IMG/VR virus record: IMGVR_UViG_3300028388_001194
Span: 1-25,472 of that record
Source: a virus
Direction: 5' to 3' (one strand)
Length of the DNA: 25,472 nt
Positions within the stretch are counted from its first letter, which is position 1. Each line of letters starts with the position of its first letter. Below the pieces are notes generated by a model. It was not told the origin of the DNA. It saw only the letters and a program-made list of their open reading frames with translations, and made no database searches. Positions 3,001-22,552 of this stretch are shown in pieces. The position numbers were made by a program, and so were the translations under genes.

Positions 3001-6000
3001 CTTACTACAGATAATATAATATTTGAAGAGACAGGAGAAAACACTTTTAGAGCAGGTATACAAAATGCTAAGAATCTGTTATATGAGTTAAATAGAGTAG
3101 CTAAAGATTTAGGTCTAGAACATTACACTGTTAAGGAGATTAATAAAGAAATTGATAAACATTCTAATGTACCTATTGGTTATGGCGCTATAAAAAGTCT
3201 TAATACTGAGTTCTCTAACTACAGAGATCATGTTCGACTACTTAAAGGAGATGGCGTAGAATATAATGGAGAAGATATCACAGATATTGAACCAGATAAT
3301 CTAGATTATATTTCTCAACTCAGAACATATTTTAGTGGCGTATCTCCTACAAGAATTGTCATCACAGATTTAGTGGGAGGTAGTTCTGCTCCTGTATCTA
3401 AAAAGAAGGAGAAAACTGTTAAAGCCGTTAAAAAAGCTAAGAAAACAAAAGCGAAAGTTAAAGCTACTCCTAAAGTAGATACAGATAATTATACTCCTTT
3501 ACGTAAGGTAGGAGATAAAATGGTTTTGCCAGATAATTCAACCCTCTCTTTAGCTAGAGCAGATGGTATGAAAGGTTTTATTACTGTAACTCATCTAGAT
3601 ACTGAAGGTAATTCTATTTTAGGTCCATTTGTTTTTGATAGTAAAGACACTGAATCAATTGATGAGCTTACTGAAACTATACTCCAATCTTATAATAAAA
3701 CTATTCTTCCGGCAGCAGCTGCTACAGAAACTACTGAGGAGCAAGATACTGAAGTAGAAACAACTGAAGTAGAAACAACTGAGGTAGAAACAACTGAAGT
3801 AGAAACAACTGAAGTAGAAGAATCTAAAAGTAAACAAACAAAAAATAAACCTGTACCTGTTACGAGAATGCCGGAAAAGGAAGAGACTATAGTTATGGTT
3901 CCTCCTAAAACTAAAGTTGATGCTAAAGACATTAAAATAGGAGATACCTTAATAGTTTCTAATAGATTTGGTAATAAGTTTGTTACTATAAAAGATCGTT
4001 ATAATAAAAAGACTGTACTTAAAGATGATACTGGACACACCTTAGCTATTTCAGATGTTCAACTGCAGAAAAGATTAAATGCTAAAGATAATGTAACTAC
4101 TACTAGATATAGATTAATTACTGACAATAGAGATAATTATACTTCTCAAGTATATAAATCTGCAGAGAAAGCTCTTCGTGTGCCTAGATCTAGGAATAAA
4201 TCAGCTAAGGCTGATAAAATTACTGAAAGAAGTATACTACAAATCTTAGATACAGAAGGTTTAATTAGAGACGTTGTAGAAGTCATTAAAGTTACTCCTA
4301 AAACTATTACTACACAGTCCATACAAAACGTAGGAGCTAAGGTTACTGGTATGCGAAAAGCTACAGCTCAAAAGATGCTTGATCTAGAAAATGCGGATCA
4401 AGGAGATAAACTACGAGTGGTAGAACTAGCTCCAGAACCTATCAACCTAATTAAATATACTACTAAAACAAAAGGTAAAGATGGAGTAAAAGGTAAATCT
4501 AGAACCCCAACTAAAAAGACAGCTCGTAAATCTAAAGGACAAACAGGTAAGTCTAATAAAAAGTTTAAGACGAAACTTAATCCTAAATCTAAAGCTAAAA
4601 CATCTCAAAAGAAACTTTCAAAAAAAGAATTAGTAGATAAAATTTTAGCGCACAAGGATTTTAAGAAAACTAGTTTTACTCCTAGAGAAATTAAATCTGT
4701 GAACAGTGTCACTGAATTAAAACAAATACTTAATACTCTAGATAAAGGCAGTTCATTTAATGCTTGGACTACTTTATTCCCATCTACTGAACCTGGTGAA
4801 AAGATATCTAAGGAAGAAGCAATTCGCATTATTCAGAAAATGCTGCCTGGATTTAAAGTAGATCCTGATTCTGCTCAATCTCAACTTAAATTCTTATCTA
4901 AGTTAGAGATGTCAGCTAGATGGGGAGATGGAGTATATGGCCGAGTAGAAGATGCAATTATGTATCTCATGGCTTCTAAAGGACAGACATTTGATCAAGT
5001 AGCTCTTCACGAAGTATTTCACGTAGTATATAAATACCTACTAGATAATCATGAACGTGAAGCGTTAGAGAAAGCACTTAAAGAAATGTATCCTCAAGCA
5101 GCTTCTGTAGAAGAAGGATTAGCTGAGGTATTTCAAGCATTTGCTTCTAGACGTATAAAGACGTCTAGTATTACAAATAAGATATTAGATTTCTTTTACG
5201 ATATATTAGCATTCTTTAATCTCGTATCGTCTAACCAAGCTACTTTACGTAAAATATTTACTCGTATAACTCAAGGTTATTATTCTGCAGAAGTTCTTAA
5301 TAATGGGATGTCTGCTTCTAATGCAACTTTCTATGAGAATAATTTTGACTCAGTATCTCAATATGTAGAAATTAAAAATGAGATATTAGAACATCTAGGA
5401 CCTTATCTAAAACCCAATAAAGATAATGAATCTTTAACTCAGGTGTACTTAGATGATGAAGTAGAAGATCATATAGCTGTTACTAGACAAGAGGCTATTG
5501 AGGAAGTGTATAATTACTTAACTAATTATAGAGTGTCTTTAAAGCGTAACATATTCCAAGTAGAAAATAGTCCTAACTCTGAGATGATGTCTAAAATGCT
5601 AGATCGTTACCAAAAACGTCTACGTATTATAGATACTATGCTTAAGTATGATCCTGCATCTGGCAAGACTATATTTGAAAATGTAGTATTTAATAGACTT
5701 TCTGGTAATACTATGAATCAAGAAGACTTAGAAGTTATTTACGCTCATGAAACTATTGAAGATGCTGTAGAAGAATATAAAAAACTAAACAGTGAAACTT
5801 TAGGTATACAAGCTCACACTGTAGATCATTCTACTGTAAATTATGAACATAAACAATCTGAGTCTGTTAAAGACTTTCTCTCATTTATACCTAAACTAGA
5901 TGATGCAGCTTATTACGGATCTAAGAACTTAGAGAAGCCTGATGTAAGTTTCGTTGAAGATGACTATATTAATCCTAGATTTGCGTATATTCGTACAGCT

Positions 6001-9000
6001 CAAGTACTTCAAGAAATTGATTTATCTCAGTTAGATTATATAGGTAAACAGTTAAGAACATTTAGAGCTTTAAATCAAATGAATGCTGAGACTGAATCTA
6101 TATTAACTATGTTATCTATTTTAAGTGATAAAGCTCGTAATCATCCTCAAGGTTATGAGAATGTTAGTATAGTAACTCAGACGGAGGATTTATCCGCTAC
6201 TCCTAAATATTATCTCTTATATCATCCTACGACAGATATATCTAATCTTACTTTTGAGGAGGCTAAATTATTAAGTAAGCAAGAAGCTGACTTACCGCAA
6301 GATGAACAATTAGTTATAGCAGAACAAAAGACTATTAAACTCGAATCTCTTTACGCAGATGCTGTGTCTAAGGGAATAGAACTTCCTTTAGATATATTTA
6401 ATGAGCTCTACTTTAAGGAGGAAGCTGCTAATACTTTACGAGAACTTCACTCATCACTAGGTTCTTTAAAAGAGTCTAACTACTATATTATGAAATCATC
6501 TTATCATAAAGGTAAATATTTCATAAATTATCATCAAGCTACTGATAAAGGTCTTCAAACTAATATACGTGAGAAGTTTAAAGAGAATTTCCGTAAAATG
6601 GTTAAAAAGTATGATGAGAATAGAGGACCTATTAAAAAGTTAGCTGAAACTATTACTGGCAATGGAACTAGAGAAGAACGTATACAAGCTTTACGTAAGT
6701 TAGTTTCTCCAGAATTCCTAAACATGGAGTTTTACGCTAATAAAGTTTCATTTGATAAAGCACTTAATGATTTATCTAACATTGGTTATGTGTTAGAGAA
6801 AATTGATCACTTCTCTAATTTATCTACGGCAGAAGATATTGAATCTTTCTTCGAAGATCAAGCAGCTAATGTACGTAGATTTACTTCTAGCTTAGTTAAA
6901 TCCTCCGATAGGTTGAAGAATCCTTCTATTGTAGGTAGTAAAGGTAAGATGTTTACACTTCACCCATCTACGTACATAGATGATAGACTTAGAGAAATTA
7001 AAGAATACTTCAGACAACTTAGATCTGGACGTATAGCTTGGAGACGAAAAGCTTTCTCTAGTATATTTAATAACGATTTTATGATGAATAATATCTTCAT
7101 TAGTTCTAATAAAACTAAAGAAGGAGAAGATTTTAAGCCTCTCAACGTTATTCATAGAATTGTTACTCACGATGGTCTTATGTATTCTCAAGATAGAATT
7201 AAGACCTATTTACGTATGTCAAGGAATGAGTTAATCAATATGATGTTTAGTGCAGGATTTTTATCTACTGCTACTTCCACGGGGGAGAAATCATCTAAGT
7301 ATGTACAATATGTGTATCAACAATCTGATAAACCTAGACCTACAGGAGCCCTTATAGATGTTTTAAATCCTGCTCAGATAGATGAAGCGTTGGGACGTAT
7401 GTATGATCAGCTTGTACAACACCCAGATCTTTCTTCTCAAGTTAAGAAGTTTACTAATAAATTTGTTAATGCAGAGATATTTGAAGGAGCAGATATGAGT
7501 AATAAGAAGAAAGCTGTAAAACACGCTAAAGCTAAGCTCCTAGAGATTTCTTATCAAATGTCTGAGGAATTAGTTAATAAAACATTTAGACTTCCTGCTA
7601 ACTCTAAGTTCTCTAAATTAGATAAATTTGTAGATTGGAAGGGTATCTCAGATAAAGTTACTAAAAAAGAACACGATAAGTTAGGTTCTATGAGAGATGA
7701 AGATGGTAACGTATATGCAGATGATATTAATAAACTTCTTCCATATGTACACACATTTATTTCTAATTATTATGTTAACAGTTATTTTTTAACTCAGCTT
7801 GGAGCAGGTACTTCTCAATTCTTTACTACAGGTCAAAATCAAGTTAAACGTATGGCTGGACCATCAGGTCCTGGTACTAGAGGTTTAGTTGATGACTTTG
7901 TAGGTATGAAAGAAGAATTTAGAGCAATTATCGTTCAAGACGATGAAGTTAAATTTAATAGCGTAGCAGATAAACTATCTAATCTTGTGTTTAATAAGCC
8001 TTACTCAGATTTAGAAGGTACTGCTAAAGAAGAAATGGATGAGTTACTGCTTCTATTTGACCCAGAAGGATTTGAATTAACTGATGCTCAAGGATTTATG
8101 ACTCCTGCTCGTTTCGCACAACTTAATAAAGGGTTTGGTCGAGGAGCTAAACTTTCCAATATCTTAAAACCTATGTACTTTGGTGTGCATAATAGAGTTT
8201 ATAATCAGATAGGAGAGAATGGAGAAGTCACAGGACAATTTAATTTTCCTACGCCTACGTATCTTAAGTATTCATCTGTAGTAATTACAGACGAATTAGC
8301 TAAGCGATTCCCTAATACGTTAGGTAAAATAAGAGAAACTATGGAGAGTCAAGACAATCCTATTGACGAACTTATTTTCCATTCGGGAACTAAAGTAGGA
8401 GCTCCTATTAAATCTGAATCTGCTACTGTACAGAATATTATAAATGGAGTAATACCTGAATCTTCTGTAATTAATTTATCTAATAGACATTATCGTATTC
8501 AACTTAATCCTAGAGCTAAGACAACAGGTAAAAACATCGCACTCCCTTCTCAGTTAGTATATTTTACTAATCTATTTAATACCAATGTTAGACAAGCAGA
8601 TAGAATATTTAAGAGTATTGTTAATCTGTATAAAATTGGTGCTGCTCAATTTGGTCGTAAACTTAAACGAGAAGGTATTTCTAATATCGTTAAATCTGCG
8701 CTTGAAGGAACTACAGATGAGAGGTATAACGTATTCTTAAATCAAGAAAATGGTGATCGTACTTTACAAACACCTCTACTATCTAAAAAAGCTATCATTA
8801 GATTATCTTCTCTACTTGAGAAAATGACTACTACTATTAAAGTACCTGGAGGTAAAATGATTCTTCAATCTTCTGTAGGTATTACTAATCCTAAGACAAA
8901 AGAACCTCTTAAATATTATATAGAAAATGGTAAGTTAGTAGCTGAAGTAGTTCTCCCTTCAGGATTACTAGAATCTAACTTAGAGTCTAAAATAAAGAGT

Positions 9001-12000
9001 GGTAATTTAGAATCAATTAATCCACTTTTAGTAGGTTTCCGTATTCCTTCTACAGAACTTCACTCAGCTATTACTCTCAAAGTAGTAGATATTTATGATA
9101 CTAAGAAAACTAATGTAGTTATTGCTCCTGATATTCTAGTTGCACTTCACGGTTCTGACTTTGACGTTGACTCACTACAGATATTAAGACCAGGCGCTGC
9201 TAAAAATAATGTTAGTCTGTATCAAGATTCTTTTAATGAATCTTATCTAGAGACCATACGTGAATTTATTGAAGATCCGCAAGGAGAAATAGAAGAACAT
9301 GCGGCTTCTTTAATTAAAGATATTTTTTACTCAGAAGATCTACCTCAATCTTCTAAGGAACTTCACGAGCTACAAATGGAATCAATTAATAATAAAGAGT
9401 TCCAGCTGTACATAGAAAATTTATTCGAATCTTCAAATATTAATAATGAGAGTGAGTTTGCTTCCTTACTAGATCTCAAATATCGTAAACGTGAAGGTCT
9501 ATGGCAAATTAAAAGTAAATTATCCTGGGATCTTTACGAGTTATCTAAGTACGCAGAACTTCATGAGTCATTAGCTCCTCTAACTTACGATTTCCACATC
9601 TCTAAATTTACTTCAGGAGAGAATGAAATTCTAATTAAGAAAGGAGATTTAATAGGATTTAAATCTAATAAAGAAGGTAAATTATATTTTGATAGGAAAA
9701 TAGTACAGAAGTTAGAAGAATCCTATCAAGCTGTGCAAAGAGATTTGAGTACTATTAATTCTATGAGAGGTAACTATCCTAACTTATTGTTAGATAGATT
9801 AGAGAAAACTTATCAAAAAAGAATGAATAATATATCTGATGCTATATCAGTATATTATAAAAATGAAATTGTGGATACCTTCTCTGAAGTAGTAGCAAAT
9901 GCTGGTAAACAGTCAGATACTTTCGCTACTAAAGGTAATCTTCGTCGTATTGTTTCTCCTATCTCTATGGAAATGTGGAATGAAGCATTGGATGAGTTAT
10001 ATGATCTAGGATTAATATCTAAAGAAGATCTTGATTTATCTAACTTTGAGGATTTCTTAACTGCTCATGCTTCTGTATCAGATGGTGGTATTCTTACAGG
10101 TGTAGAAGCTAATAACGTTAAAGTTTTAGCATATATTTTACGCTCCGGTAGTCTAGCTAATAAAAAGATACTCGAAATTCAAAGTGAAATTGAAGAATTA
10201 AGAGAAGAAATTGCTTACTCAGATTTAGAAATGGGTAGGATTGAAGCAGATAAATACGGAGATATAGCAACTTATGGTGAACAGATAGCTGATCTTAAAA
10301 AGAAGCTTAGTAAACTATCTAAAGTAGAAGAGAACAATGATCGTATAATCTCCTATAAAGCAGAGATTGAAAATTTGCAAGAATTACAAGAAGAACTTAA
10401 ATTAAAACGTAATAAGGATAGTGCTTACGATAAATTTAAAAAAGCTTCTACTAAATCAAATAAAAAGTTAAATAAACTACAGAAGAAATTAAATAAATTA
10501 ATACCATCTTCTGCGCAAGAAGTAGCTAGTAAGAATCCTAATAAGATGAAACCTCATCTTGATTCTAATCTACACTTTAATTATAAACTATCAAATGGTA
10601 AAGTACAAAACTTCCATAGGATAGTAGAAAATCAATTAGAATCATCTCGCTCTGTATGGGAGGTGCTTGATTCTTTTATTAACATTGCTATTGATAATGT
10701 TAAAGAACAGATTCTCCCTAAAATTAAAGCTAATTCTGTTAATGGTAATGCTTACGCTGTATTATTTGCTATGGGTATGCCTTTAGTAGATACAGTACTT
10801 CTTATGCACCAACCTATATTTAACCTGTCTTTTGAAACTAAGAAATATTCAGGTGGACTGGTTAATGAAGCTACAGAAAAACTTGCTAAAAAATATAATA
10901 TTAAAGGGGAATTTGATACCAATCTAGATAAAATGAATGCTGTAGTAGATGCTATAGGTATTACTTTATCTAAGAAGGAATTGAAAAACATGCTTAAAGA
11001 GAAGAATAGAAATAAGGTATTAGATCTTATTAAAGATAAAAAAGCAGATGAAATTAATTTTAATGATCCACTTCTACTTAAACAATATGTAGCTTTAACT
11101 ATATTTCATAAAGCTTATGTAGCTGGAGAAAGTGTAAAAGAGCTAGCTCAATTCCTCAGTGTAGCTCGTGAGATCCCTGTTACGTATGAAGATTCTCTCT
11201 CGTTCTTAGATAATTTCTCTAAGAATATTGGTGACCTTAATATCTCTCCTAAAAGAGCTTACGAAATTTTATTTGAATCCGATATTAATTTCTCTCAAAA
11301 TCAACCAGAGTTCTATAAACAGTTGGATGAGATAATGACAAAAGGATTTAAGATGAGGAAGAATCTTAAATTTGATATACCTAACTTCTTCTATCAAAAT
11401 CCTCATATCTTATACTCTTATTTAGTAGTATTAGCTAATGTACATACTATAGAATCTAACTTTAAGATTCACTCTCCTCAAGCTAAAAAAGTTATTAATG
11501 GTATTAAACAGGTTGATCCTAATACTGGAGATAGTACCAAGATACACGATATCTTGTCTTTAGATGATGAATCTACTAATTCTAATCAATCATTAATTAG
11601 ACAGGAGATATTTAAATTCCTAGCTTTTAGATTATCTGGAGTAACAAACTTTAAAGAATTTAGTAGTACAGTAGCTAATCTTATAGAACAAGCTCAAGAG
11701 AAAGCTAAAGGCCAAAATGAATTTTTAAATAACATATCTGTAACTAGAGATAAAAAAGGTCTCGTTAAAATAGAATTTACTAATGCCGCTAATTTAGAGG
11801 ATGAAGATATTATAGATATCCATAACGCATTTAGAAATCTAGATAAATACTTTACTGACAAGGAAATAGATGATTTAGTAAATTATGCTGCTATTAGATA
11901 TGGGTTAGTATATTCTTCAGCTAATTATTCTTTCGCTATACCTCCAGAATACATTAACGAAATTTCCAATCGTTTAATGAATATGTTTGAGATGATGTTG

Positions 12001-15000
12001 GAAGAAAAAGAGTTAGATTATTTACAAGATGATTTCTTTTACTCAATTTTAGCGAGTAATGCAGAGGATATTAAATCATTTGTCCCATATAAATCTAATC
12101 CTAATATAGATATAATCAAAGAAACTCCTGATGAGTTAGAAGATTTTGTTTATGATGAAGGATACACTGGACTTATAGAACAGTCTTTCCCATTTATTAT
12201 ATCTAAACGTAAAGGTGAAACTATACATATTCTACAGAAAGCTGTTGAGTTAAGTTCTGAAAAAATTAAAAATAGAAAATACGTACTTTACAAAACTATT
12301 ATAGTTTCAGATAATTTAGCAGTTCATGATCAAAGATTCACTAAAGAAGATATAGAGAACTTAACGAATTATCGTATACCATTTAAAGGAAATATTGATA
12401 TTACTTCTCTAACTACTGCTCGTATGAGAGGTACGAATTCAAAGAGAGTTCCTACCTCTAAATTCTTTGCTCGTAATAATTTAGGTAGAGTAGTTATGTT
12501 TACTCCTTCTTCTAAAAAGAAGCATAAAATTAACGAGAAAGAGAAGACTATCACAATAAAAGGTAATCAACAAGCTCCTAATTTACTTCCTACTACTAAT
12601 AGGAGAAGTGATCTTAGAGATTCCTTAATTAAGTATAAATTACTTCCTTCTAATTTCTTTGCTCAGACTACTAAAGTTAGCGGAAAAGATATTATTAAGT
12701 CAGGTATGTTGCAAGATGATGTTCTTATGAATGGATTATCTCAAGAAGAGATAGAACTTCTCGAACAACTTCTTAATCTTGATACTCCTATCTTTTTCTC
12801 AGATAAATTAACTCATGCTGGTGTGTCTACTAAATCTGGAGTAGTTATTTCTACTACAGCAGGTCACCCTATGTCAATTGGACAAACTCTATTACATGAG
12901 TTAGTTCACGAAACTACTATCAATAATCTTAACTCTAACGCAGATATCAAACAGAGTTTACAAGATGAGATAGATATTTTATCTGAAACTATGGATGATT
13001 ATGGGTTAACTTCGCCAGAGGAATTCTTAGCAGAGTTTTATTCTAACCCTGTGTTTAGAGATAAAATAAGAAAACAAAGTGAACCTCAAGAGCGTAAAAC
13101 ATCTTTTATTAGAAGTATTTATGATCAAATAATTAGTCTTATCTCTAGACTTCTCTCAATCTCTTCTGAGCCAATTATATCTCGTATGTTAGGAGGTAGA
13201 AAATCATTTATTACTTCTAATACTTTATCTTCTGAGAATGTAACTGAATCCGAAATGGATGGGCTCATACCTGATTTCAACAGTATTAAATCTAAAGAAG
13301 TATTCTTAATGGAGTCTTCTACCTCTTCATCTGGTATAGAAGAAATTAAAAACATAGGATCTAAATTAAAAGAAACAGAAGAAGGTTATAAATTAGGTAA
13401 TAAAGTATTTAAACACGTAACTGATCCTGTTGAAGGAGGTATATCTAAACTTCGTAAAGTTAAAACTACTATTAAAGAAGCTGAACAGATTGCTGACCAA
13501 GAGTGGGGTAGCACAGATCCTGAGAAAACTCTTCCTACTAGATACGGACCATTAGATAAACAAGGATTTATCGAAGCGTTAGAGAGATCTAGAAATCAAG
13601 GTAAGATTAGAGGTAATATAGTTCACTCTATTATGCAGCAAGTATTCACTAAATCTGTTGAGCAATTATCTGAAATAAAGAATAAGATACAAGAGGAGCT
13701 AGAATACTCTGGTCTCCCTAAAGTAACTTTTGATTGGTTAATGGAGGAGAGTACCGTTAAAAAAGTAGTGGCTCTTATGGGTTTAAATACATATGATAAA
13801 AATGTTGAACAAGATGAGAGAGACATAGTAGAAACAGAAGTTCCTATATATTCTGAAGAATTAGAACTTGGAGGTAAAATAGATATTTTAGCCCAAGATA
13901 AAGATGGACTCTACTCTATATTAGATTTAAAAACAGGATATAAATTTAATGAAACTTATTCTTCTCAAATATTTAAATATGGTAATAACGGTTCTGGAGG
14001 ACAAGTAATTCACGATACAACTAAGAATAGAGCTAAGCTGCAGATTATGTGGTATGCTCTAATGCTTAAAGCTCAGCAACCAGACGCTAAATTTAAAGAT
14101 TTACGTATTGTATGGCTTCCTTCAGAATCAGCTCTAAAGACCACAGATTTAATTCAAGATGTAGATGTTCAAGCATTCCTTCGCATGTTAGAACTTTATC
14201 TAAAGAACGAAGAACCTAATGCTTACGCAGATCTTCTCGCTAAATCTCCTCAACTATTCCGTGCTCAAGATTACTCCATTAAAGGATCTAGATTAGATCA
14301 ACGTGAAATGAAAAGAACTGGTAAAAATCCTAAAGAAATTGCTGAGGATCTTTTCACTGAACTTACCGAGACTGTAGCATTCTCTGAATCTAGCTTTGGT
14401 ACGGATACAGATATGGTATCCATAGCTAAGAATAAAGCTAAGATATCTGATCTTACTAAAAGACTTCTCCCTTATCTGAATAAAGATCTAGGAGTTACTA
14501 TAGATGGTTACGATACAGATATATCCTGGGCTTCATACTGGTTAGGATCTCCCGCATCTTTAAATTCTCCTTACGTACAGATTTATAATAAAGTATATAG
14601 AGATAGAAAACAATTATATCTAAACAGATATGCGATGTATCAGACTGAATTTAGAAATAGATTACTCCCTATATATAATGAATATCTACGTCGTAATGGA
14701 CAAGCTACTATATCTAAGCTCACTAGAAATTATATGGTAAATGTTAACCATAAAGAATTATTTGGTTGGGCTTTAATACCTGTGTATAACGAAGCTAAAG
14801 AAGTTATTGATTATAAATTTGCTACAACTACTCAAGAGTGGGCTGAACAAAAGAAAAAATATCCATTCATAGATCAGAAACACATTGACTTTATACGTTG
14901 GATAAATGATTCCTATGCTCAATTCTTTATAGATTCTAAATCTTCTAGTGGAACTGCTCTAGCTAATAAAGTAGTGGCTTATAAACCTACATCTAGAGGA

Positions 15001-17100
15001 CAGATAGCTGTAACAGCTTTAGATGCTCATAACGGAGCGTTGTCTACTTCAGGTCGTAAGCGACAAGCTTTCGCTAATTCAAATGGCGAATACTTTTATG
15101 GATGGATGCCTAAAGTTCCTAAAGCTCTAAATGAATTTGGTTATTTAAATAAGAAAAGAGCTAGACAACAATTTGTTAGAGCTAAATCTAATTTTATTGA
15201 AAATACTTATCATGGTTGGGATCAACAAGAAATCGCTCTCCCACTCAAGTATATGGGTAGTAGGCAACTAGATGCTAACCCTGACAATTATACCTTTAAT
15301 ATAGAGCGACAGTTCGATAAATTTATGAGAGGTATGATATTTAAAGAACAGATGGATGAAGTTTATGCTTTAGGTAAAGGTATCCAGTTTTATTTAGAAA
15401 TGGAGAAAGGAGACAAGATGAAGAATACTCGTAAATATCTAGAGAAATCTTTAGATATGCACTTACGTAATATGACGCAAAGAGCTAATGATCCTCAACC
15501 AGTAGGTAAGAATGCCGCTAATGTAGATTATTGGAAAGTTCTCTCTAACTCCACTAACGTAGCTTCTGCTCCCATTATGTGGTTTAACTGGGTAGGAGGT
15601 ACAGCTAACGGTTTATTTACTTATTTGTATACTCATAAAGAATCTGTTAAAGGATCAATACTAAAAGGTGAAGGTATCACTGGTAAAATAGGACGAGGAT
15701 TAGTTAAAGGTCTTACTCTAGGAGCTGCTAATGATTTTACAGGAATTGATGGTAATCAAGTAGATTTCACTCAATCTGATATTAGAGCTGCTTGGGGAGA
15801 ATTTTCTAACATGATGAAAGATTCTATGACTAGAGATCTACGTAAGAATAAAACTTATCTCTTACTCCAGAAATTTGCTTATTTACCTGATAGCTGGGAT
15901 TGGGCTAGTTCTCCTGAGTCTTTAGTCACTGAGAAGTTTAAAGGAGTATCTCAACAGATGGCTTATATATTTCAAACTCTTCCTGAAGAGGCTATAGCTT
16001 CTCTTATTATGGTGGCTCAACTTAAATCTATGAAGATTTCTCAATCCCATCCGAATAAAGAATTTGCTGGCGCTTCTCTGTATGATATGTATGAGGTAAC
16101 CACCAGACAATCTACAGCTGGTGACACTATATATGATGTTACGTGGAAGAAAGACAAAGACGGTAATCCATTTGTTAGAGGTTACATTAATACTTCACCG
16201 CATGAATCTACTCCACAATATGAACCTCTCACTGAGCTTACTGGTAACGAAGTAAATAGAATGTTTTACGTCTATGAGCGTATGCACGGTGGTTATAGAC
16301 AAGAAGAGCGTACTATGTTAGAATATTACGTTATAGGTAAACTCTTCCTTCAATTTAAAAAATATATGCCCTCTATCTTACGTAACGCATTCCAGTCTTC
16401 AGGTAAGAGAACTTCTTTAGGTTATTATCAACCAGTAACTAAAAACGGAGAAGTTGTCATGGAAGATGGAGCGCCAGTAGTAGAATGGGTATCTAGGATA
16501 ATGGAAGGTAGATGGGTAGTCTTAGGAAAAATGCTACAATCTTATCTTAATATTAAGATGAAATATGAAGGAGATAATTTAAATGATTTCCAGAAATTTG
16601 TTAATAAGTTTGTCCTCGGTGAAGGTAAAGACATAGAATCTTATAGATGGGAGAATTTAGATATAGGTCAAAAAGAAGCAGTTATTGACTGGGCTCTAAC
16701 TATGACGATATGGAGCTCTATGTTAGGAGGATATTTCCTTATCTTTGGAGGAGAAGTAGATGATGATGATTCAATTCGTAAGTTCTACTCTAGAATTATG
16801 AATGACTTTTCCCATCAATATAATGCTTGGGAGTTATCTAAGAACCTCTCTAACCTTACTCCAGTAGCAATACGTAAGTTTCATCAAATAATTACATCTA
16901 CTACAGATGTATCTATAGGGGCTGCTAACTATTTCTTAGGAGATGAAGAAGCAGCATTTACGAATGAAGGCACGCTAGTAGGTTGGAATTCCTTACAACG
17001 AGATATTCCATTACTATCAGCTTATCGTAAGACAGCTTATTTCTTTGATAATTTATCTGACTCTCAAGATTACATACCTAGAAATTATGGTCTATACTAA
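1..17100 (+). CDS. Giant multidomain virion protein with DFDxD RNA polymerase (5' end cut by window)
   Basis: The frame is open from base 1 to a TAA at 17098-17100, giving 5,699 visible residues (numbered here from bases 1-3). The first Met codon is at 112, but the 37 codons before it contain no stop and read like ordinary protein, so the true start lies upstream. In order the protein shows an SF1B helicase (about 130-410), Lys/Glu-rich linkers (about 455-510 and near 1140), a Thr/Glu tandem repeat (about 1251-1273), a basic linker (about 1490-1545), a zincin motif (1670), the polymerase motif DFDVD (3053-3057), a coiled coil (about 3387-3500), a second zincin motif (4299), a RecB-like nuclease (about 4535-4690) and hydrophobic segments near the C-terminus. 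crAss-like phages package giant proteins with this polymerase and inject them for early transcription. The single-protein fusion is seen here; virion packaging is inferred. A terminator follows 28 bases after the stop. Confidence 0.93.
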   Translation, partial: FSKTPDKYLFTVLSRVLGKSAFQITEQGEVTSLIRYKMELNPIILFNDLSKDEIPDLTEDKSKALDIIKEYYKDFSAIYNANLIGDSKISSNDIAEILSETIESESIYPTLQQELSLMDSVRTLSTPGGIALVKGIYGSGKTKLVAKRMMTIYKKMMGIKDSEITAIGHSSASSEVINKSLGLTTTTKEQLMQGNLENTKLLVIDEAIAFDNNSLVAILEVAKQQNIPVLLMGDPSQITVESLPYALRGAATSIVDAHPITVVMRTNVPAISLLAEKFQFNPNKVTTAYGRKSTQELSKDTIGVDSGAASTIIEKVKQKTGRNKLVITNTQADVNNKYSELKDLDNVKVVTYDQAQGLEADEVYIDLDPTGKDLNNKPFSSNLQFNAAMATAISRATQYVFVANQNSLTVNSTLDNNLVSKAEIAEEEINQNKERYIESIDDYKNYYAKYFEGVSIKKKKKEVVESREKSRKKEDTKKDEESARRPNPEALPEATKEATPIPPQETVEEGDFILDYPQTESVDRLKVNQEVRIIPVRKNSKSKVLYKVYAREEDSQGRAVDRVVGVLSEDDIIRMGIRSLESEDKVLLTSADQGSGVMPADIIDKQEPVVLGKAKIKQASSLTYHTDAPQPRQADILKIISEFISGFYAQGNKLDIPKQWTSKDGSLNTSKILKSLNLRIFSRGRLSKAVGPKARLKSGAVYLEVQAPQASTNQVINQYIRLEPPTLSPRSRNFKVIKKLEDALRNYAKLITNSDDVAKQDAFLKAHFNTKQFDTNIQAISEMYKWSAADNKIVKKDPKSKAAEDIIPEEALKVVQNMSNEGFNALLPIMKMFYGPQKAATTVTREEFNAMIKNDPERFLPIYTEKNMRDKGSQLKGNNLVLPKVNTNDGIRSFETVRLKRGAGEASKAWRRLAYANAEIGGSSSRTTPRRGKDGGERVSPKVLLSHKGSIDAVSVLIKDKLREASAILQQAIDNSQTTKSETERINALLSHSNIIVESYLTTDNIIFEETGENTFRAGIQNAKNLLYELNRVAKDLGLEHYTVKEINKEIDKHSNVPIGYGAIKSLNTEFSNYRDHVRLLKGDGVEYNGEDITDIEPDNLDYISQLRTYFSGVSPTRIVITDLVGGSSAPVSKKKEKTVKAVKKAKKTKAKVKATPKVDTDNYTPLRKVGDKMVLPDNSTLSLARADGMKGFITVTHLDTEGNSILGPFVFDSKDTESIDELTETILQSYNKTILPAAAATETTEEQDTEVETTEVETTEVETTEVETTEVEESKSKQTKNKPVPVTRMPEKEETIVMVPPKTKVDAKDIKIGDTLIVSNRFGNKFVTIKDRYNKKTVLKDDTGHTLAISDVQLQKRLNAKDNVTTTRYRLITDNRDNYTSQVYKSAEKALRVPRSRNKSAKADKITERSILQILDTEGLIRDVVEVIKVTPKTITTQSIQNVGAKVTGMRKATAQKMLDLENADQGDKLRVVELAPEPINLIKYTTKTKGKDGVKGKSRTPTKKTARKSKGQTGKSNKKFKTKLNPKSKAKTSQKKLSKKELVDKILAHKDFKKTSFTPREIKSVNSVTELKQILNTLDKGSSFNAWTTLFPSTEPGEKISKEEAIRIIQKMLPGFKVDPDSAQSQLKFLSKLEMSARWGDGVYGRVEDAIMYLMASKGQTFDQVALHEVFHVVYKYLLDNHEREALEKALKEMYPQAASVEEGLAEVFQAFASRRIKTSSITNKILDFFYDILAFFNLVSSNQATLRKIFTRITQGYYSAEVLNNGMSASNATFYENNFDSVSQYVEIKNEILEHLGPYLKPNKDNESLTQVYLDDEVEDHIAVTRQEAIEEVYNYLTNYRVSLKRNIFQVENSPNSEMMSKMLDRYQKRLRIIDTMLKYDPASGKTIFENVVFNRLSGNTMNQEDLEVIYAHETIEDAVEEYKKLNSETLGIQAHTVDHSTVNYEHKQSESVKDFLSFIPKLDDAAYYGSKNLEKPDVSFVEDDYINPRFAYIRTAQVLQEIDLSQLDYIGKQLRTFRALNQMNAETESILTMLSILSDKARNHPQGYENVSIVTQTEDLSATPKYYLLYHPTTDISNLTFEEAKLLSKQEADLPQDEQLVIAEQKTIKLESLYADAVSKGIELPLDIFNELYFKEEAANTLRELHSSLGSLKESNYYIMKSSYHKGKYFINYHQATDKGLQTNIREKFKENFRKMVKKYDENRGPIKKLAETITGNGTREERIQALRKLVSPEFLNMEFYANKVSFDKALNDLSNIGYVLEKIDHFSNLSTAEDIESFFEDQAANVRRFTSSLVKSSDRLKNPSIVGSKGKMFTLHPSTYIDDRLREIKEYFRQLRSGRIAWRRKAFSSIFNNDFMMNNIFISSNKTKEGEDFKPLNVIHRIVTHDGLMYSQDRIKTYLRMSRNELINMMFSAGFLSTATSTGEKSSKYVQYVYQQSDKPRPTGALIDVLNPAQIDEALGRMYDQLVQHPDLSSQVKKFTNKFVNAEIFEGADMSNKKKAVKHAKAKLLEISYQMSEELVNKTFRLPANSKFSKLDKFVDWKGISDKVTKKEHDKLGSMRDEDGNVYADDINKLLPYVHTFISNYYVNSYFLTQLGAGTSQFFTTGQNQVKRMAGPSGPGTRGLVDDFVGMKEEFRAIIVQDDEVKFNSVADKLSNLVFNKPYSDLEGTAKEEMDELLLLFDPEGFELTDAQGFMTPARFAQLNKGFGRGAKLSNILKPMYFGVHNRVYNQIGENGEVTGQFNFPTPTYLKYSSVVITDELAKRFPNTLGKIRETMESQDNPIDELIFHSGTKVGAPIKSESATVQNIINGVIPESSVINLSNRHYRIQLNPRAKTTGKNIALPSQLVYFTNLFNTNVRQADRIFKSIVNLYKIGAAQFGRKLKREGISNIVKSALEGTTDERYNVFLNQENGDRTLQTPLLSKKAIIRLSSLLEKMTTTIKVPGGKMILQSSVGITNPKTKEPLKYYIENGKLVAEVVLPSGLLESNLESKIKSGNLESINPLLVGFRIPSTELHSAITLKVVDIYDTKKTNVVIAPDILVALHGSDFDVDSLQILRPGAAKNNVSLYQDSFNESYLETIREFIEDPQGEIEEHAASLIKDIFYSEDLPQSSKELHELQMESINNKEFQLYIENLFESSNINNESEFASLLDLKYRKREGLWQIKSKLSWDLYELSKYAELHESLAPLTYDFHISKFTSGENEILIKKGDLIGFKSNKEGKLYFDRKIVQKLEESYQAVQRDLSTINSMRGNYPNLLLDRLEKTYQKRMNNISDAISVYYKNEIVDTFSEVVANAGKQSDTFATKGNLRRIVSPISMEMWNEALDELYDLGLISKEDLDLSNFEDFLTAHASVSDGGILTGVEANNVKVLAYILRSGSLANKKILEIQSEIEELREEIAYSDLEMGRIEADKYGDIATYGEQIADLKKKLSKLSKVEENNDRIISYKAEIENLQELQEELKLKRNKDSAYDKFKKASTKSNKKLNKLQKKLNKLIPSSAQEVASKNPNKMKPHLDSNLHFNYKLSNGKVQNFHRIVENQLESSRSVWEVLDSFINIAIDNVKEQILPKIKANSVNGNAYAVLFAMGMPLVDTVLLMHQPIFNLSFETKKYSGGLVNEATEKLAKKYNIKGEFDTNLDKMNAVVDAIGITLSKKELKNMLKEKNRNKVLDLIKDKKADEINFNDPLLLKQYVALTIFHKAYVAGESVKELAQFLSVAREIPVTYEDSLSFLDNFSKNIGDLNISPKRAYEILFESDINFSQNQPEFYKQLDEIMTKGFKMRKNLKFDIPNFFYQNPHILYSYLVVLANVHTIESNFKIHSPQAKKVINGIKQVDPNTGDSTKIHDILSLDDESTNSNQSLIRQEIFKFLAFRLSGVTNFKEFSSTVANLIEQAQEKAKGQNEFLNNISVTRDKKGLVKIEFTNAANLEDEDIIDIHNAFRNLDKYFTDKEIDDLVNYAAIRYGLVYSSANYSFAIPPEYINEISNRLMNMFEMMLEEKELDYLQDDFFYSILASNAEDIKSFVPYKSNPNIDIIKETPDELEDFVYDEGYTGLIEQSFPFIISKRKGETIHILQKAVELSSEKIKNRKYVLYKTIIVSDNLAVHDQRFTKEDIENLTNYRIPFKGNIDITSLTTARMRGTNSKRVPTSKFFARNNLGRVVMFTPSSKKKHKINEKEKTITIKGNQQAPNLLPTTNRRSDLRDSLIKYKLLPSNFFAQTTKVSGKDIIKSGMLQDDVLMNGLSQEEIELLEQLLNLDTPIFFSDKLTHAGVSTKSGVVISTTAGHPMSIGQTLLHELVHETTINNLNSNADIKQSLQDEIDILSETMDDYGLTSPEEFLAEFYSNPVFRDKIRKQSEPQERKTSFIRSIYDQIISLISRLLSISSEPIISRMLGGRKSFITSNTLSSENVTESEMDGLIPDFNSIKSKEVFLMESSTSSSGIEEIKNIGSKLKETEEGYKLGNKVFKHVTDPVEGGISKLRKVKTTIKEAEQIADQEWGSTDPEKTLPTRYGPLDKQGFIEALERSRNQGKIRGNIVHSIMQQVFTKSVEQLSEIKNKIQEELEYSGLPKVTFDWLMEESTVKKVVALMGLNTYDKNVEQDERDIVETEVPIYSEELELGGKIDILAQDKDGLYSILDLKTGYKFNETYSSQIFKYGNNGSGGQVIHDTTKNRAKLQIMWYALMLKAQQPDAKFKDLRIVWLPSESALKTTDLIQDVDVQAFLRMLELYLKNEEPNAYADLLAKSPQLFRAQDYSIKGSRLDQREMKRTGKNPKEIAEDLFTELTETVAFSESSFGTDTDMVSIAKNKAKISDLTKRLLPYLNKDLGVTIDGYDTDISWASYWLGSPASLNSPYVQIYNKVYRDRKQLYLNRYAMYQTEFRNRLLPIYNEYLRRNGQATISKLTRNYMVNVNHKELFGWALIPVYNEAKEVIDYKFATTTQEWAEQKKKYPFIDQKHIDFIRWINDSYAQFFIDSKSSSGTALANKVVAYKPTSRGQIAVTALDAHNGALSTSGRKRQAFANSNGEYFYGWMPKVPKALNEFGYLNKKRARQQFVRAKSNFIENTYHGWDQQEIALPLKYMGSRQLDANPDNYTFNIERQFDKFMRGMIFKEQMDEVYALGKGIQFYLEMEKGDKMKNTRKYLEKSLDMHLRNMTQRANDPQPVGKNAANVDYWKVLSNSTNVASAPIMWFNWVGGTANGLFTYLYTHKESVKGSILKGEGITGKIGRGLVKGLTLGAANDFTGIDGNQVDFTQSDIRAAWGEFSNMMKDSMTRDLRKNKTYLLLQKFAYLPDSWDWASSPESLVTEKFKGVSQQMAYIFQTLPEEAIASLIMVAQLKSMKISQSHPNKEFAGASLYDMYEVTTRQSTAGDTIYDVTWKKDKDGNPFVRGYINTSPHESTPQYEPLTELTGNEVNRMFYVYERMHGGYRQEERTMLEYYVIGKLFLQFKKYMPSILRNAFQSSGKRTSLGYYQPVTKNGEVVMEDGAPVVEWVSRIMEGRWVVLGKMLQSYLNIKMKYEGDNLNDFQKFVNKFVLGEGKDIESYRWENLDIGQKEAVIDWALTMTIWSSMLGGYFLIFGGEVDDDDSIRKFYSRIMNDFSHQYNAWELSKNLSNLTPVAIRKFHQIITSTTDVSIGAANYFLGDEEAAFTNEGTLVGWNSLQRDIPLLSAYRKTAYFFDNLSDSQDYIPRNYGLY
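370..1230 (+). other. SF1B (RecD/Pif1-like) helicase domain in the giant protein
   Basis: Motif I (Walker A) is GIYGSGKT at 403-426, residues 135-142. A Ia-like stretch GHSSASSEVINKSLG follows. Motif II is LLVIDEA at 601-621, with Asp-Glu at residues 205-206. Motif III is GDPSQ at 697-711, with the sensing Gln at residue 237. A motif V-like QAQGLEADEV lies near 1060-1090, and motif VI is AISRATQYV near 1174-1200, with its Arg at 1183. The order and spacing fit SF1B helicases of the RecD/Pif1 type, which use ATP to move 5' to 3' on single-stranded DNA. A role in drawing in or unwinding the phage genome during early transcription is inference. Confidence 0.8.
3751..3819 (+). repeat. 15-bp tandem repeat coding for a Glu-Val-Glu-Thr-Thr linker
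   Basis: Four full copies of the 15-base unit GAAGTAGAAACAACT start at 3751, 3766, 3781 (one substitution, GAG for GAA) and 3796, and a 9-base partial copy ends at 3819. Each unit encodes EVETT, so the repeat keeps the giant frame and makes an acidic, low-complexity linker between domains. Near-identity of the copies suggests recent slippage, so copy number may vary between isolates. Confidence 0.95.
4969..5160 (+). other. First HExxH zincin-like metalloprotease motif in the giant protein
   Basis: The sequence LHEVFHVVYKYLLD places HEVFH at 5008-5022 (His1670, Glu1671, His1674). An EEGLAEVFQAF helix follows with Glu1709 at 5125, a good candidate third zinc ligand as in gluzincins. Hydrophobic helices surround both. 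This is a recognisable zinc-peptidase core, but the wider fold cannot be assigned by eye. It sits between a long basic linker and the polymerase region. Confidence 0.65.
7200..11500 (+). other. Single-chain RNA polymerase region with DFDVD catalytic motif
   Basis: The motif LHGSDFDVDSLQ places three metal-binding aspartates at residues 3053, 3055 and 3057 (9157-9171). This matches the DxDxD signature of double-psi beta-barrel polymerases, in the DFDxD form known from the crAss-like virion polymerase (phi14:2 gp66). An upstream FHSGTKVGAP stretch near 8380-8405 carries a Lys that may belong to the other barrel. A coiled coil rich in Leu, Glu and Lys follows the catalytic motif at about 10159-10500. 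The domain limits given are rough; only the catalytic motif is firm. The product would be early phage transcripts made before or without host polymerase. Confidence 0.8.
12841..13060 (+). other. Second HExxH zincin-like metalloprotease motif in the giant protein
   Basis: TLLHELVHETTIN places HELVH at 12895-12909 (His4299, Glu4300, His4303). A downstream SPEEFLAEFYSN helix supplies Glu4345 at 13033 as a possible third zinc ligand. The arrangement parallels the first zincin motif at 5008, but the surrounding sequence is different, so it is not a simple recent duplication. It lies between the polymerase and the nuclease. Confidence 0.68.
13570..14110 (+). other. RecB/Cas4-like PD-(D/E)XK nuclease domain in the giant protein
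   Basis: The motif series is typical of RecB-family nucleases. RGNIVHSIMQQ carries the early His (residue 4542, 13624). GGKIDIL carries Asp4628 (13882). SILDLKTG carries Asp4642 and Lys4644 (13924 and 13930). LQIMWYALML gives the QxxxY motif from Gln4681 (14041). Every expected catalytic residue is present, so the domain is probably an active DNA nuclease. Whether it acts on host DNA, on phage DNA ends or in superinfection exclusion cannot be told from sequence. Confidence 0.82.
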
Positions 17101-20538: not shown

Positions 20539-20965
20539 TGTCTAATGATTTTATTATTTCAATACAACGTTGTATCTCTTTTTTGTTATGAGGTTTAAAC
20601 AAGACGTATTCTTGTCCAGTTTCCTGGAGATGTTTTTTAAACAACTTCCAACGAAGTTTGAATGATGGAGTTTCATAACCTTTAGTCTCCATTATCCAAT
20701 TTTTACCCACAAAATCCGGGGTGTAACTGATCTTAGAAATTGTTTTAGTAGGTTTCTCCTTAAAAGTTTTCTTACCTCTATAAGATACACGTTCATAACA
20801 AGTACCTGAAGTATATTTAAACTTAGGTATTAGTATGAAGCTGGTAGGTTCATACTCGAACTCTATTCCAGCTTCATTTAATAGTTGGTAAGCAGTCTTC
20901 TCTAATTTTGATCTTAGTTTCTTACCTTTATATATGACTTCTTTATTATTAAATTTCCTTTTCAC
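20465..20965 (-). CDS. PD-(D/E)XK phage endonuclease, DUF1064-like
   Basis: This 166-residue protein matches the pattern of DUF1064 and related phage nucleases. SKLEKTAYQLL carries Glu22, YTPDFV carries Pro-Asp at 83-84, and WIMETKGYETP carries Glu93 and Lys95, followed by a basic helix KLRWKLFKKHL. The C-terminal 20 residues are almost all Lys, Arg and Ser, suiting DNA binding. The start is GTG at 20965 inside the last codons of the glycosylase gene (17-base overlap); no ATG lies upstream of the conserved part. It ends in TAG, the only such stop among the complete genes here. A branched-DNA or single-strand endonuclease role is likely from family behaviour. Confidence 0.75.
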   Translation of the reverse strand: MKRKFNNKEVIYKGKKLRSKLEKTAYQLLNEAGIEFEYEPTSFILIPKFKYTSGTCYERVSYRGKKTFKEKPTKTISKISYTPDFVGKNWIMETKGYETPSFKLRWKLFKKHLQETGQEYVLFKPHNKKEIQRCIEIIKSLDNGTNNPNQKMAQRKRKSKRSSKKK

Positions 20966-21485
20966 CGCTTAACGGATTTTTGCACCACTTAATTTCACTC
21001 ACATTACTGAAAATATCTTGATCGTTAAATGAAGGGTATACTACACCGCCTCGTTTAAATGTTTTGTTGTTAGAAAATGGTGACGGATGAGATGAGATAA
21101 TAAAATTATGATCTGTATCTAGATAATCTGAGATAAGATCATAGGCTTTAGTTCCCATTATAATCCACGTTATAGAATCTTTATGATTCATTAGAACTTG
21201 AATAAGATCTTTAGTGAATCCGCTCCATAAAGCAGTATGAGATCCGGCATTACCTCTCTCAACTGTGAGAGCTGTGTTAAGAAGTAATACTCCTTGCTTA
21301 GCTTGGTATTCTCCCCAAGCTTCTGTGAAATCTTTTTTTGCTAAGGCTTTTGCGTACATGGCTTCCCCGTCTATAGGAAATTCTGTGGCTAATTTATGTA
21401 AAATGTTTCTTAATGAAGGAGGTAAATATCCTTTCTTCTGAGTAGAAAAACATAAACCATCTGCGACATCTGGAGTATGGTATGG
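20949..21485 (-). CDS. ung: Uracil-DNA glycosylase, exon 2 (C-terminal part)
   Basis: This stretch continues the glycosylase directly after the intron, beginning PYHTPDVADGLCFST. It carries the family 1 features in order: the rest of the GQDPYH loop, the uracil-stacking Phe in GLCFS (residue 85 of the spliced protein), LLLNTALTV with the uracil-reading Asn142, and SSHPSPFS with the catalytic His205. The first Met in this part is at 21359, but the 42 codons before it are clearly conserved glycosylase sequence, so the exon starts at 21485. Joined to exon 1 the protein has 250 residues, close to the usual size. It removes uracil from DNA by cleaving the base-sugar bond. Confidence 0.93.
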   Translation of the reverse strand, partial: PYHTPDVADGLCFSTQKKGYLPPSLRNILHKLATEFPIDGEAMYAKALAKKDFTEAWGEYQAKQGVLLLNTALTVERGNAGSHTALWSGFTKDLIQVLMNHKDSITWIIMGTKAYDLISDYLDTDHNFIISSHPSPFSNNKTFKRGGVVYPSFNDQDIFSNVSEIKWCKNPLSGEKEI

Positions 21486-22336
21486 CTACCTCCATCAACG
21501 AAGATGGAGGCTGGACTATCTCTTATTCTTCTTCGTCTTTAAGACCCAACTTCTCTGGGTCAAAGTCGATTAAAGAATCTAGGCGCTCTAGCTGGTAATT
21601 AAGGGTTCCTACCCCTCCAGTAGTCTCTGCACCTTCCTCGTCAGCGGACAAGGCTTGGCTCAGGGTTGCTGTACACTCTGTACATAAAGTAATGTCTCGC
21701 ACAAGATTTAATCTCGAAGAATCACTACCACATATACGGCATACAGGTTCCTTGAATTCACCTAGTTTAACTGGAGATCTTTTACAAACGTTAAGAAATC
21801 TAGAGAAATCGTCAGCGTTAGCTACCCACATTAAATTCATCTTCCCACTAACAATTCTCATTGATAAGGAGGGGAGCTGCTTATCTTTGCAATGACCTAA
21901 TAGATAAGCCATGAGAGCAGTAGAATTTAATATGGCGAGTTTCTCTGGATCTTTAGATTGTTTAAAAGATCTCACAACAGGACCCGTTTCAATGTCTTTA
22001 TGGAACAACTCTCGTACTTCTAGCATCATCTGACCCATAGAAGCACCTACTACAGCTCTAGAAACAATCTCAATAGAGATGTCTCCTAGTTGTTTACGCA
22101 TGGGTTGAAGAGATTGAATTGCTTTATTCAATACTTTCTCGTACATCTCGTCTTTATCCATATTAGCGTATAAACTACGAAATAATTTCATCATAGAATC
22201 CATGCCAATAGCATTTAGTCTAAGACTTTGGCCTTCAATACGAACATGTTTGAGTTCATATTTATAACCTTCTGTAGTTGTTCCAATTAATTTAGGTTGT
22301 GACATTGGTAATTAATTTAATTAAATAATTTAGCTA
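21486..22336 (-). ncRNA. Group I self-splicing intron in the uracil-DNA glycosylase gene
   Basis: The insertion has exact group I ends: exon 1 stops in T (22337) and the intron ends in G (21486). Conserved elements: Q AACCCTGAGCCAAG (21654-21667) and R GGTGCAGAGACTA (21621-21633), both like plastid and cyanobacterial trnL introns, and S AAGAGATAGTCC (21513-21524). Pairings: P3 21759-21765 with 21579-21585 (7 bp); P4 21750-21756 with 21659-21665 (one mismatch); P5 21742-21746 with 21669-21673; P7 21621-21625 with 21514-21518; P8 21570-21576 with 21536-21542 plus an inner 6-bp stem; P9 21489-21496 with 21503-21510. A P7.1-like hairpin (21602-21615) suggests subgroup IA. J3/4 is AA. One core line reaches about 58% G+C. 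Confidence 0.93.
21523..22305 (-). CDS. Intron-encoded protein with zinc-ribbon pattern, unknown family
   Basis: This 260-residue protein starts 32 bases into the intron and stops inside the S element just before P7 closes. It shows no LAGLIDADG, GIY-YIG, HNH or PD-(D/E)XK motif that I can see. Residues 1-180 look like a mixed helix-strand domain. Cys189, Cys192, Cys208 and Cys211 (CRICG and LCTEC) make a likely zinc ribbon, and the tail is acidic (KDEEE). Codons 181-260 overlie the ribozyme core from P3 to P8, so the same bases serve protein and RNA. It may be an unrecognised homing nuclease, a splicing helper, or a passenger gene. The open frame is real beyond doubt; the function is unknown. 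Confidence 0.75.
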   Translation of the reverse strand: MSQPKLIGTTTEGYKYELKHVRIEGQSLRLNAIGMDSMMKLFRSLYANMDKDEMYEKVLNKAIQSLQPMRKQLGDISIEIVSRAVVGASMGQMMLEVRELFHKDIETGPVVRSFKQSKDPEKLAILNSTALMAYLLGHCKDKQLPSLSMRIVSGKMNLMWVANADDFSRFLNVCKRSPVKLGEFKEPVCRICGSDSSRLNLVRDITLCTECTATLSQALSADEEGAETTGGVGTLNYQLERLDSLIDFDPEKLGLKDEEE

Positions 22337-22552
22337 ATCCTGTCCCAAGATGACGACTTTTAAATCGTCTAAGTCGTGATGATTAAATGCGTTAAATAGT
22401 TTAGAAGGATGAGGATATATTTCCTTCTCTGCTTTAGATAGCTGTTTATTAATTTTGTGTTCGTGTTTACCTAGAATAGGTGCTAATAGTTCTAAGTAAT
22501 TAGGTTGAACTCTGTTTTGTAACTTCGACTTTATCTTTTCTATGTTTTCCAA
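22337..22552 (-). CDS. ung: Uracil-DNA glycosylase, exon 1 (N-terminal part)
   Basis: The 72 codons end KVVILGQD, with Asp72 the catalytic aspartate that activates water in family 1 glycosylases. Before it lie IYPHPSKLFNAF and LDDLKVVIL, the standard N-terminal pattern of the family. Without splicing, translation would halt at the TAG just inside the intron (22334-22336) and give an inactive fragment, so glycosylase activity depends on RNA splicing. The ATG at 22552 is the only Met in the exon and overlaps the end of the primase gene by 53 bases in another frame. Phage glycosylases may protect the genome from uracil from cytosine deamination or host dUTP pools. Confidence 0.92.

Follow-up and report, generated by a model that had tools for sequence, protein, structure and literature searches.

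An open reading frame running through the ribozyme core of a group I intron in the uracil-DNA glycosylase gene of a crAss-like phage

Can the same bases serve as the core of a ribozyme and as the code of a protein, and if they do, which of the two layers dictates the sequence? The question is raised by the minus strand of a 25,472-nt stretch of viral DNA (IMG/VR record IMGVR_UViG_3300028388_001194, positions 1 to 25,472; hereafter the window), where a sequence-only reading had placed the C-terminal codons of an intron-encoded protein over the core of a group I ribozyme and had proposed that production of the protein could be coupled to splicing. The genes of the window are those of a crAss-like gut phage: they include a Sak4-like protein, a primase whose best matches are in crAss-like phages, the DNA-repair enzyme uracil-DNA glycosylase (UDG), and a single 5,662-codon ORF that takes up most of the plus strand (112-17100). 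Intron-rich crAss-like phages are already known (PMC7886860). Two minus-strand ORFs match successive parts of PHROG 12143 and flank an insert:

22337-22552, minus strand: UDG exon 1, 72 codons, ending ...VVILGQD (PHROG 12143 positions 7-67, translation)
21486-22336, minus strand: group I intron, 851 nt, with the 5′ splice site between GGACAGGAU and UAG and the 3′ splice site between GGUAG and CCAUACC
20949-21485, minus strand: UDG exon 2, starting PYHTPDVADG... (PHROG 12143 positions 68-202, Pfam UDG)

The joined exons give the invariant UDG motif GQDPYH and align without gaps to intronless UDGs, so that the insertion point in this phage gene falls exactly between GQD and PYH. UAG is the first intron codon read from exon 1, and splicing is predicted to restore the UDG gene with GQDPYH at the junction. 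The first 40 nt of exon 2 (window 21485-21446) are 88% identical between two intron-bearing phages and 68-72% identical to two intronless relatives, an excess of identity near the intron such as exon co-conversion would leave. A search of openly licensed papers for UDG introns in phages gave no account of the present case.

The first layer to be established is the ribozyme. Rfam Intron_gpI (RF00028) matches positions 21807-21490 of the minus strand (56.9 bits, E 3.5e-12). Related introns were gathered through a distant DNA search, DNA pattern scans and UDG scans of viral contigs, and the distant DNA search matched only the ribozyme core, in crAss-like phages and in Flavobacterium phage immuto. 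A family covariance model was built by aligning the cores of 22 relatives with the window left out; 25 of the 35 pairs in its consensus covary, and the model finds the window's core at 21767-21508 with 116 bits (E 1.7e-32). When all 23 cores are aligned jointly, 94.5% of pair cells hold standard pairs, a value that drops to 33-49% with slid partners, and two-sided changes occur in 32 of 43 pairs. Base-pair covariation across homologous introns, which the sequence-only reading had put forward as a check, is thus present, with none of 500 shuffles reaching the same level. One compensatory change, in P3, is private to the window, which has A-U where all 22 relatives have G-C. The helices are arranged as follows:

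21759-21765, minus strand: P3 5′ strand, CUAGGUG (23-core alignment)
21750-21756, minus strand: P4 5′ strand, pairing with 21665-21659 with one A.C mismatch
21669-21746, minus strand: extended P5/L5 hairpin of 78 nt, window-specific; residues 188-211, the CxxC...CxxC finger, are encoded here
21659-21665, minus strand: P4 3′ strand (alignment of cores)
21636-21653, minus strand: P6, CCUUGUC/GACGAGG (23-core alignment)
21621-21625, minus strand: P7 5′ strand, GACUA (23-core alignment)
21592-21620, minus strand: P7.1/P7.2 (23-core alignment)
21579-21585, minus strand: P3 3′ strand, CGCCUAG (23-core alignment)
21525-21578, minus strand: P8, AUUCUU/AAGAAU, with an extended loop; the UAA of the ORF begins on the last P8 base
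21514-21518, minus strand: P7 3′ strand, UAGUC, outside the ORF
21489-21510, minus strand: P9 hairpin, CCUCCAUC/GAUGGAGG (sequence, MFE, Rfam alignment)

The insert has the P3-P8 core of a group I intron with its P7 guanosine site and covarying helices; U ends exon 1 and G ends the insert, and the 5′ splice-site U.G is formed via a guide sequence whose position is provisional. P7.1/P7.2 lies between the P7 5′ strand and the P3 3′ strand, an arrangement characteristic of subgroup IA. The insert is, in short, a group I intron of IA type in the UDG gene of a crAss-like phage.

The second layer is an ORF that begins near the 5′ end of the intron and runs into this core:

21523-22305, minus strand: intron ORF, 260 aa, starting with ATG; residues 1-180 are coding-like, and a CxxC...CxxC finger and an acidic tail lie C-terminally

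Codons 181-260 cover P3, P4, P5, P6, the P7 5′ strand, P7.1/P7.2, the P3 3′ strand and P8, an overlap of about 240 nt, and the P7 3′ strand and P9 are non-coding. The last 80 codons of an open frame and a covarying core do therefore occupy the same bases, as the sequence-only reading had it, and its account of the extent holds from P3 to P8, with a slight correction at the far end: the UAA stop (21525-21523) lies at the P8/J8-7 border rather than at the start of the S element. From P3 onwards in the same phase, the window has 80 open codons versus 7-59 in the relatives (counted to the stop or, in L054, to the end of the stretch), and shuffling the 240 nt of overlap leaves the frame open in 0.1-0.6% of cases (P 0.001-0.006, post hoc).

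None of the relatives keeps the frame through the core open, save one GC-rich chance case, the phage contig L054, in which four related group I cores lie within 2.3 kb (L054:71-2284) and at least three of them apparently surround one capsid-like gene:

L054:71-238, 518-700, 846-1027 and 2109-2284: group I cores found by the family model

An open frame runs through three tandem cores of this contig, and we rejected it as a second instance of overlap because the contig is GC-rich and a capsid-like exon lies between the cores in another frame (by eye); its GC content is 56-58% versus 45% in the window's core, where the open run is longer. The introns of crAss-like phages cr55_1, cr1_1 and cr4_1 and of Flavobacterium phage immuto have closely related cores, but no ORF passes through them; in three of these introns there is a gene on the opposite strand, HNH in cr55_1 and cr1_1 and uncharacterised in cr4_1. 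Introns with an intact core and a disrupted frame, which the sequence-only reading had expected to speak against the overlap, are thus numerous, but none of them carries the window's ORF, so they show only that the overlap is lineage-specific; judged by these alignments, it is particular to the window's intron lineage. Upstream of the cr55_1, cr1_1 and cr4_1 introns we also noted RAGATH-22 and RAGATH-9 RNAs:

L003:1540-1740, L004:1541-1741 and L006:853-1014: RAGATH RNAs

ARAGORN found no tmRNA near the cr55_1 and cr4_1 introns. In crAss-like phage cr118_1, an unannotated related core (L031:2948-3111, 44 bits) sits between two annotated 'DNA helicase' pieces and probably marks an intron that divides a single helicase gene.

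Which layer, then, dictates the shared bases? The sequence-only reading had both constraints acting at once, and the answer differs along the overlap. Relatives translated in the window's phase yield the same peptides (LGEF, LSQA, EGAETTGE, LNYQLER). Mismatches to the relatives at codon positions 1, 2 and 3 are 0.369, 0.366 and 0.341, with no third-position excess, in a codon-phase test that stands in for dN/dS, which needs ORF homologues. The codon-usage score of residues 181-260 is -0.10 versus 0.44 ± 0.12 in other genes, as an RNA-dictated tail would show. Compared with synonymous recodings, codons 181-260 stand at z -5.2, part of which is a baseline effect of recoding, since other 240-nt pieces of the ORF stand at -2.5 and -2.9. 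From the shared peptides, the even differences across codon positions and the odd codon usage, we conclude that the conserved core RNA dictates most of the overlapping protein tail, where a separate protein constraint is undetectable.

The extended P5/L5 hairpin is where the two layers can be told apart. It folds at an MFE of -26.7 kcal/mol (z -4.2 versus dinucleotide shuffles) and is stabler than all 1000 of its synonymous recodings (z -4.5; in 61 windows of other genes, the mean z is -0.64, s.d. 1.2, lowest -3.9), so the demands of the protein do not account for the RNA hairpin. The same segment encodes CxxC-x16-CxxC at residues 188-211, a motif that arises in 0.04-0.09% of shuffles (P 0.0004-0.0009, post hoc) and, when the bases of the hairpin are shuffled with its pairing preserved, in 0.02% of open frames (P ~0.0002, post hoc), so that the hairpin does not account for the finger either. 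The P5 extension is both a strong hairpin and finger-coding sequence. The motif had been assigned to the P4-P5 region; it belongs to P5 (21746-21669), and P4 drops out. A double constraint on the same bases accordingly stands for P5/L5, whereas the conserved core shows that of the RNA only, and we conclude that protein-specific sequence is limited to P5/L5, probably together with P8.

These results could also be read to mean that the gene works only to about residue 175 and that the rest is neutral read-through of the core, accidental and without selected function. A tail made mostly of ribozyme-dictated peptide that is common to non-coding relatives is what such a history would produce, as are the missing third-position excess and the fall in codon usage at the core, and the literature on similar ORFs predicts that extensions of this kind are often non-essential (PMC3073962). 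The improbability of the CxxC...CxxC motif even with the hairpin preserved (0.0002, post hoc) and of 80 open codons (0.001-0.006, post hoc) pull the other way, and we regard neutral read-through as a possible account that falls short of an even chance.

Database comparisons place the protein in no family. Searches of Pfam, PHROGs, NCBIfam and PDB gave no match to the intron ORF, and no homologue was found in phages (tblastn to E 10), viral contigs, genome contigs or the records behind the intron loci; weak matches at residues ~206-242 were rejected as ribozyme similarity and not protein homology. For the finger segment, profile matches are sub-threshold (PHROG 10532, E 0.013; DUF4428, E 0.06), and the AlphaFold models (pLDDT 59 for this segment, 34 for the whole ORF) are too poor for use. 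Going by its position, the protein is most likely a DNA-binding protein or nuclease serving intron mobility, and because no catalytic family was found it is not filed as a homing endonuclease.

How a frame could come to run through a ribozyme core is suggested by a cousin at the same site. Apart from the window's intron, the UDG scans of viral contigs found introns at this site only in the phage contig L060 (IMGVR_UViG_3300007538_000020) and in contigs identical to it, of which there are two. The L060 intron shares the site between GQD and PYH, the guide GUCCUGU and a related core (88 bits with the family model), but its ORF stops before P3, its guide adjoins P3, and P5 and P7 differ; at L060:2774-2936, P7 has changed to the GCAUA/UAUGC type, versus GACUA/UAGUC. 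The L060 core scores below the Rfam gathering score, so that standard annotation would miss it. Its ORF, a LAGLIDADG_2 protein (E 6e-34) in the P1 loop, ends in the codons AGU CCU GUA UAA, which contain the guide sequence, and its UAA abuts P3. The corresponding stretch of the window is UCU CCA GUU AAA CUA GGU GAA, in the same phase, with one base fewer and without a stop. The L060 nuclease was rejected as a homologue of the window ORF (BLASTP E 4), and since the two are not detectably related, L060 would stand for the ancestral layout and not for the same gene before it lost its stop.

The account that we favour, and consider likely, is that a resident ORF was extended by 'core creep' some 240 nt into the ribozyme core, through P3-P8, with the relation between splicing and translation set out below as part of it. 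We infer that the stop of the ORF originally lay before P3, as in L060, and was then lost; thereafter the conserved core would have dictated most of the new tail, and P5 and P8 would have been free to take on protein-specific sequence. Core creep was described by Edgell, Chalamcharla and Belfort in 2011, whose Table 1 lists overlaps of up to 81 nt, the longest in Synechococcus lividus over P6/P7/P3/P8/P9, and who warn that long cases may be misannotated (PMC3073962). The window's ORF passes in frame through the ribozyme core helices and, like the ORFs listed there, extends into structural elements (PMC3073962), but its overlap is about three times longer, spans P3-P8, and comes with no recognisable nuclease domain. 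Overlaps between ORFs and ribozymes are already known, and that of the window is unusually long. T4 td/I-TevI resembles it in having an ORF that enters core helices and a zinc finger, for which the window has a candidate motif (PMC3073962, PMC2988022). The GIY-YIG enzyme I-TevI is, however, encoded in the P6 loop with a 20-nt core overlap, whereas the window's ORF enters before P3, overlaps for about 240 nt, and encodes a protein that matches no nuclease family.

Whether such an overlap would matter to splicing depends on how the RNA folds around the guide sequence and the start codon:

22337-22344, minus strand: P1 5′ strand (end of exon 1), pairing with 21983-21976 in an unbroken run of 8 that includes the splice-site U.G
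21976-21983, minus strand: proposed internal guide sequence GUCCUGUU, with the GUCCUGU guide common to L060
22301-22307, minus strand: start-codon region CAAUGUC, predicted to pair with 21996-21990 (GACAUUG)
21990-21996, minus strand: GACAUUG, strand of a P1-side helix with which the start codon is predicted to pair (folding prediction)

The P1 duplex has an energy of -11.0 kcal/mol; as an 8-bp run is equalled in 6.6% of shuffles, the identity of the guide is provisional and rests mainly on the match to L060. Guide and P3 are about 210 nt apart in the window versus adjacent in the relatives. CUCCAGU, directly before P3, was rejected as the P1 guide, as it has no G for the U.G pair and reaches -5.1 versus -11.0 kcal/mol. 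The start codon is predicted to be paired with a probability of 0.99, a tightness equalled in 2 of 60 shuffles; its partner lies just 5′ of the guide, and the pairing is predicted in both pre-mRNA and excised intron once that part has been transcribed. No Shine-Dalgarno-like site was seen for the intron ORF (by eye).

A sequestered start without a visible Shine-Dalgarno-like site, an ORF with homologues in no collection and the example of L054, where a long spurious frame traverses group I cores, might suggest that the finger-like motif and the long frame are chance, that residues 1-260 are untranslated and that only the ribozyme matters. Yet codons 1-180 have coding-like usage (0.29, inside the range of other genes), and L054 is GC-rich, unlike the window's core, whose open run is longer; we hold this reading to be very improbable.

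On the favoured reading of core creep into P3-P8, the coupling of protein production to splicing that the sequence-only reading had proposed is plausible, given the predicted pairing of the start codon beside the guide and the I-TevI precedent: in T4 td, the ORF's translation and splicing compete, with RNA structure at the start restraining translation (PMC3073962, PMC2988022), and splicing drops once the start hairpin is freed (reviewed in PMC2988022). By analogy with td, translation and splicing should be mutually exclusive here. Translation of exon 1 would meet an immediate UAG; in the folded RNA, the start codon would be held paired beside the guide sequence and splicing would follow; and ribosomes that start on the intron ORF would melt P3-P8 and block splicing until they had cleared. 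The source of the protein would thus be intron RNA, unspliced or freed, at the cost of UDG mRNA.

Two stronger versions can be envisioned. In one, the arrangement is a selected switch, in which P1 folding locks the start codon and allows splicing while a starting ribosome unfolds P3-P8 and blocks it, each transcript yielding either UDG or finger protein, and the private P5 hairpin serves as ribozyme part and finger code, and perhaps as a binding site; we consider this rather unlikely. In the other, the protein is maturase-like or autoregulatory, its finger binding the P5 hairpin (or intron DNA or RNA) and so coupling its own synthesis to splicing. That the finger is encoded in an element private to the window's intron, and that I-TevI, itself a zinc-finger protein, acts as an autorepressor (PMC2988022, PMC3073962), would fit such a protein; the structure models are too poor to bear on it, and we judge it improbable.

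An overlap of about 240 nt, accompanied by a same-site cousin intron in which the ORF ends short of the core, allows the ribozyme and protein layers to be tested separately. It would also offer a compact system, one sequence serving both ribozyme and protein, in which to ask whether ribosomes and splicing are mutually exclusive.
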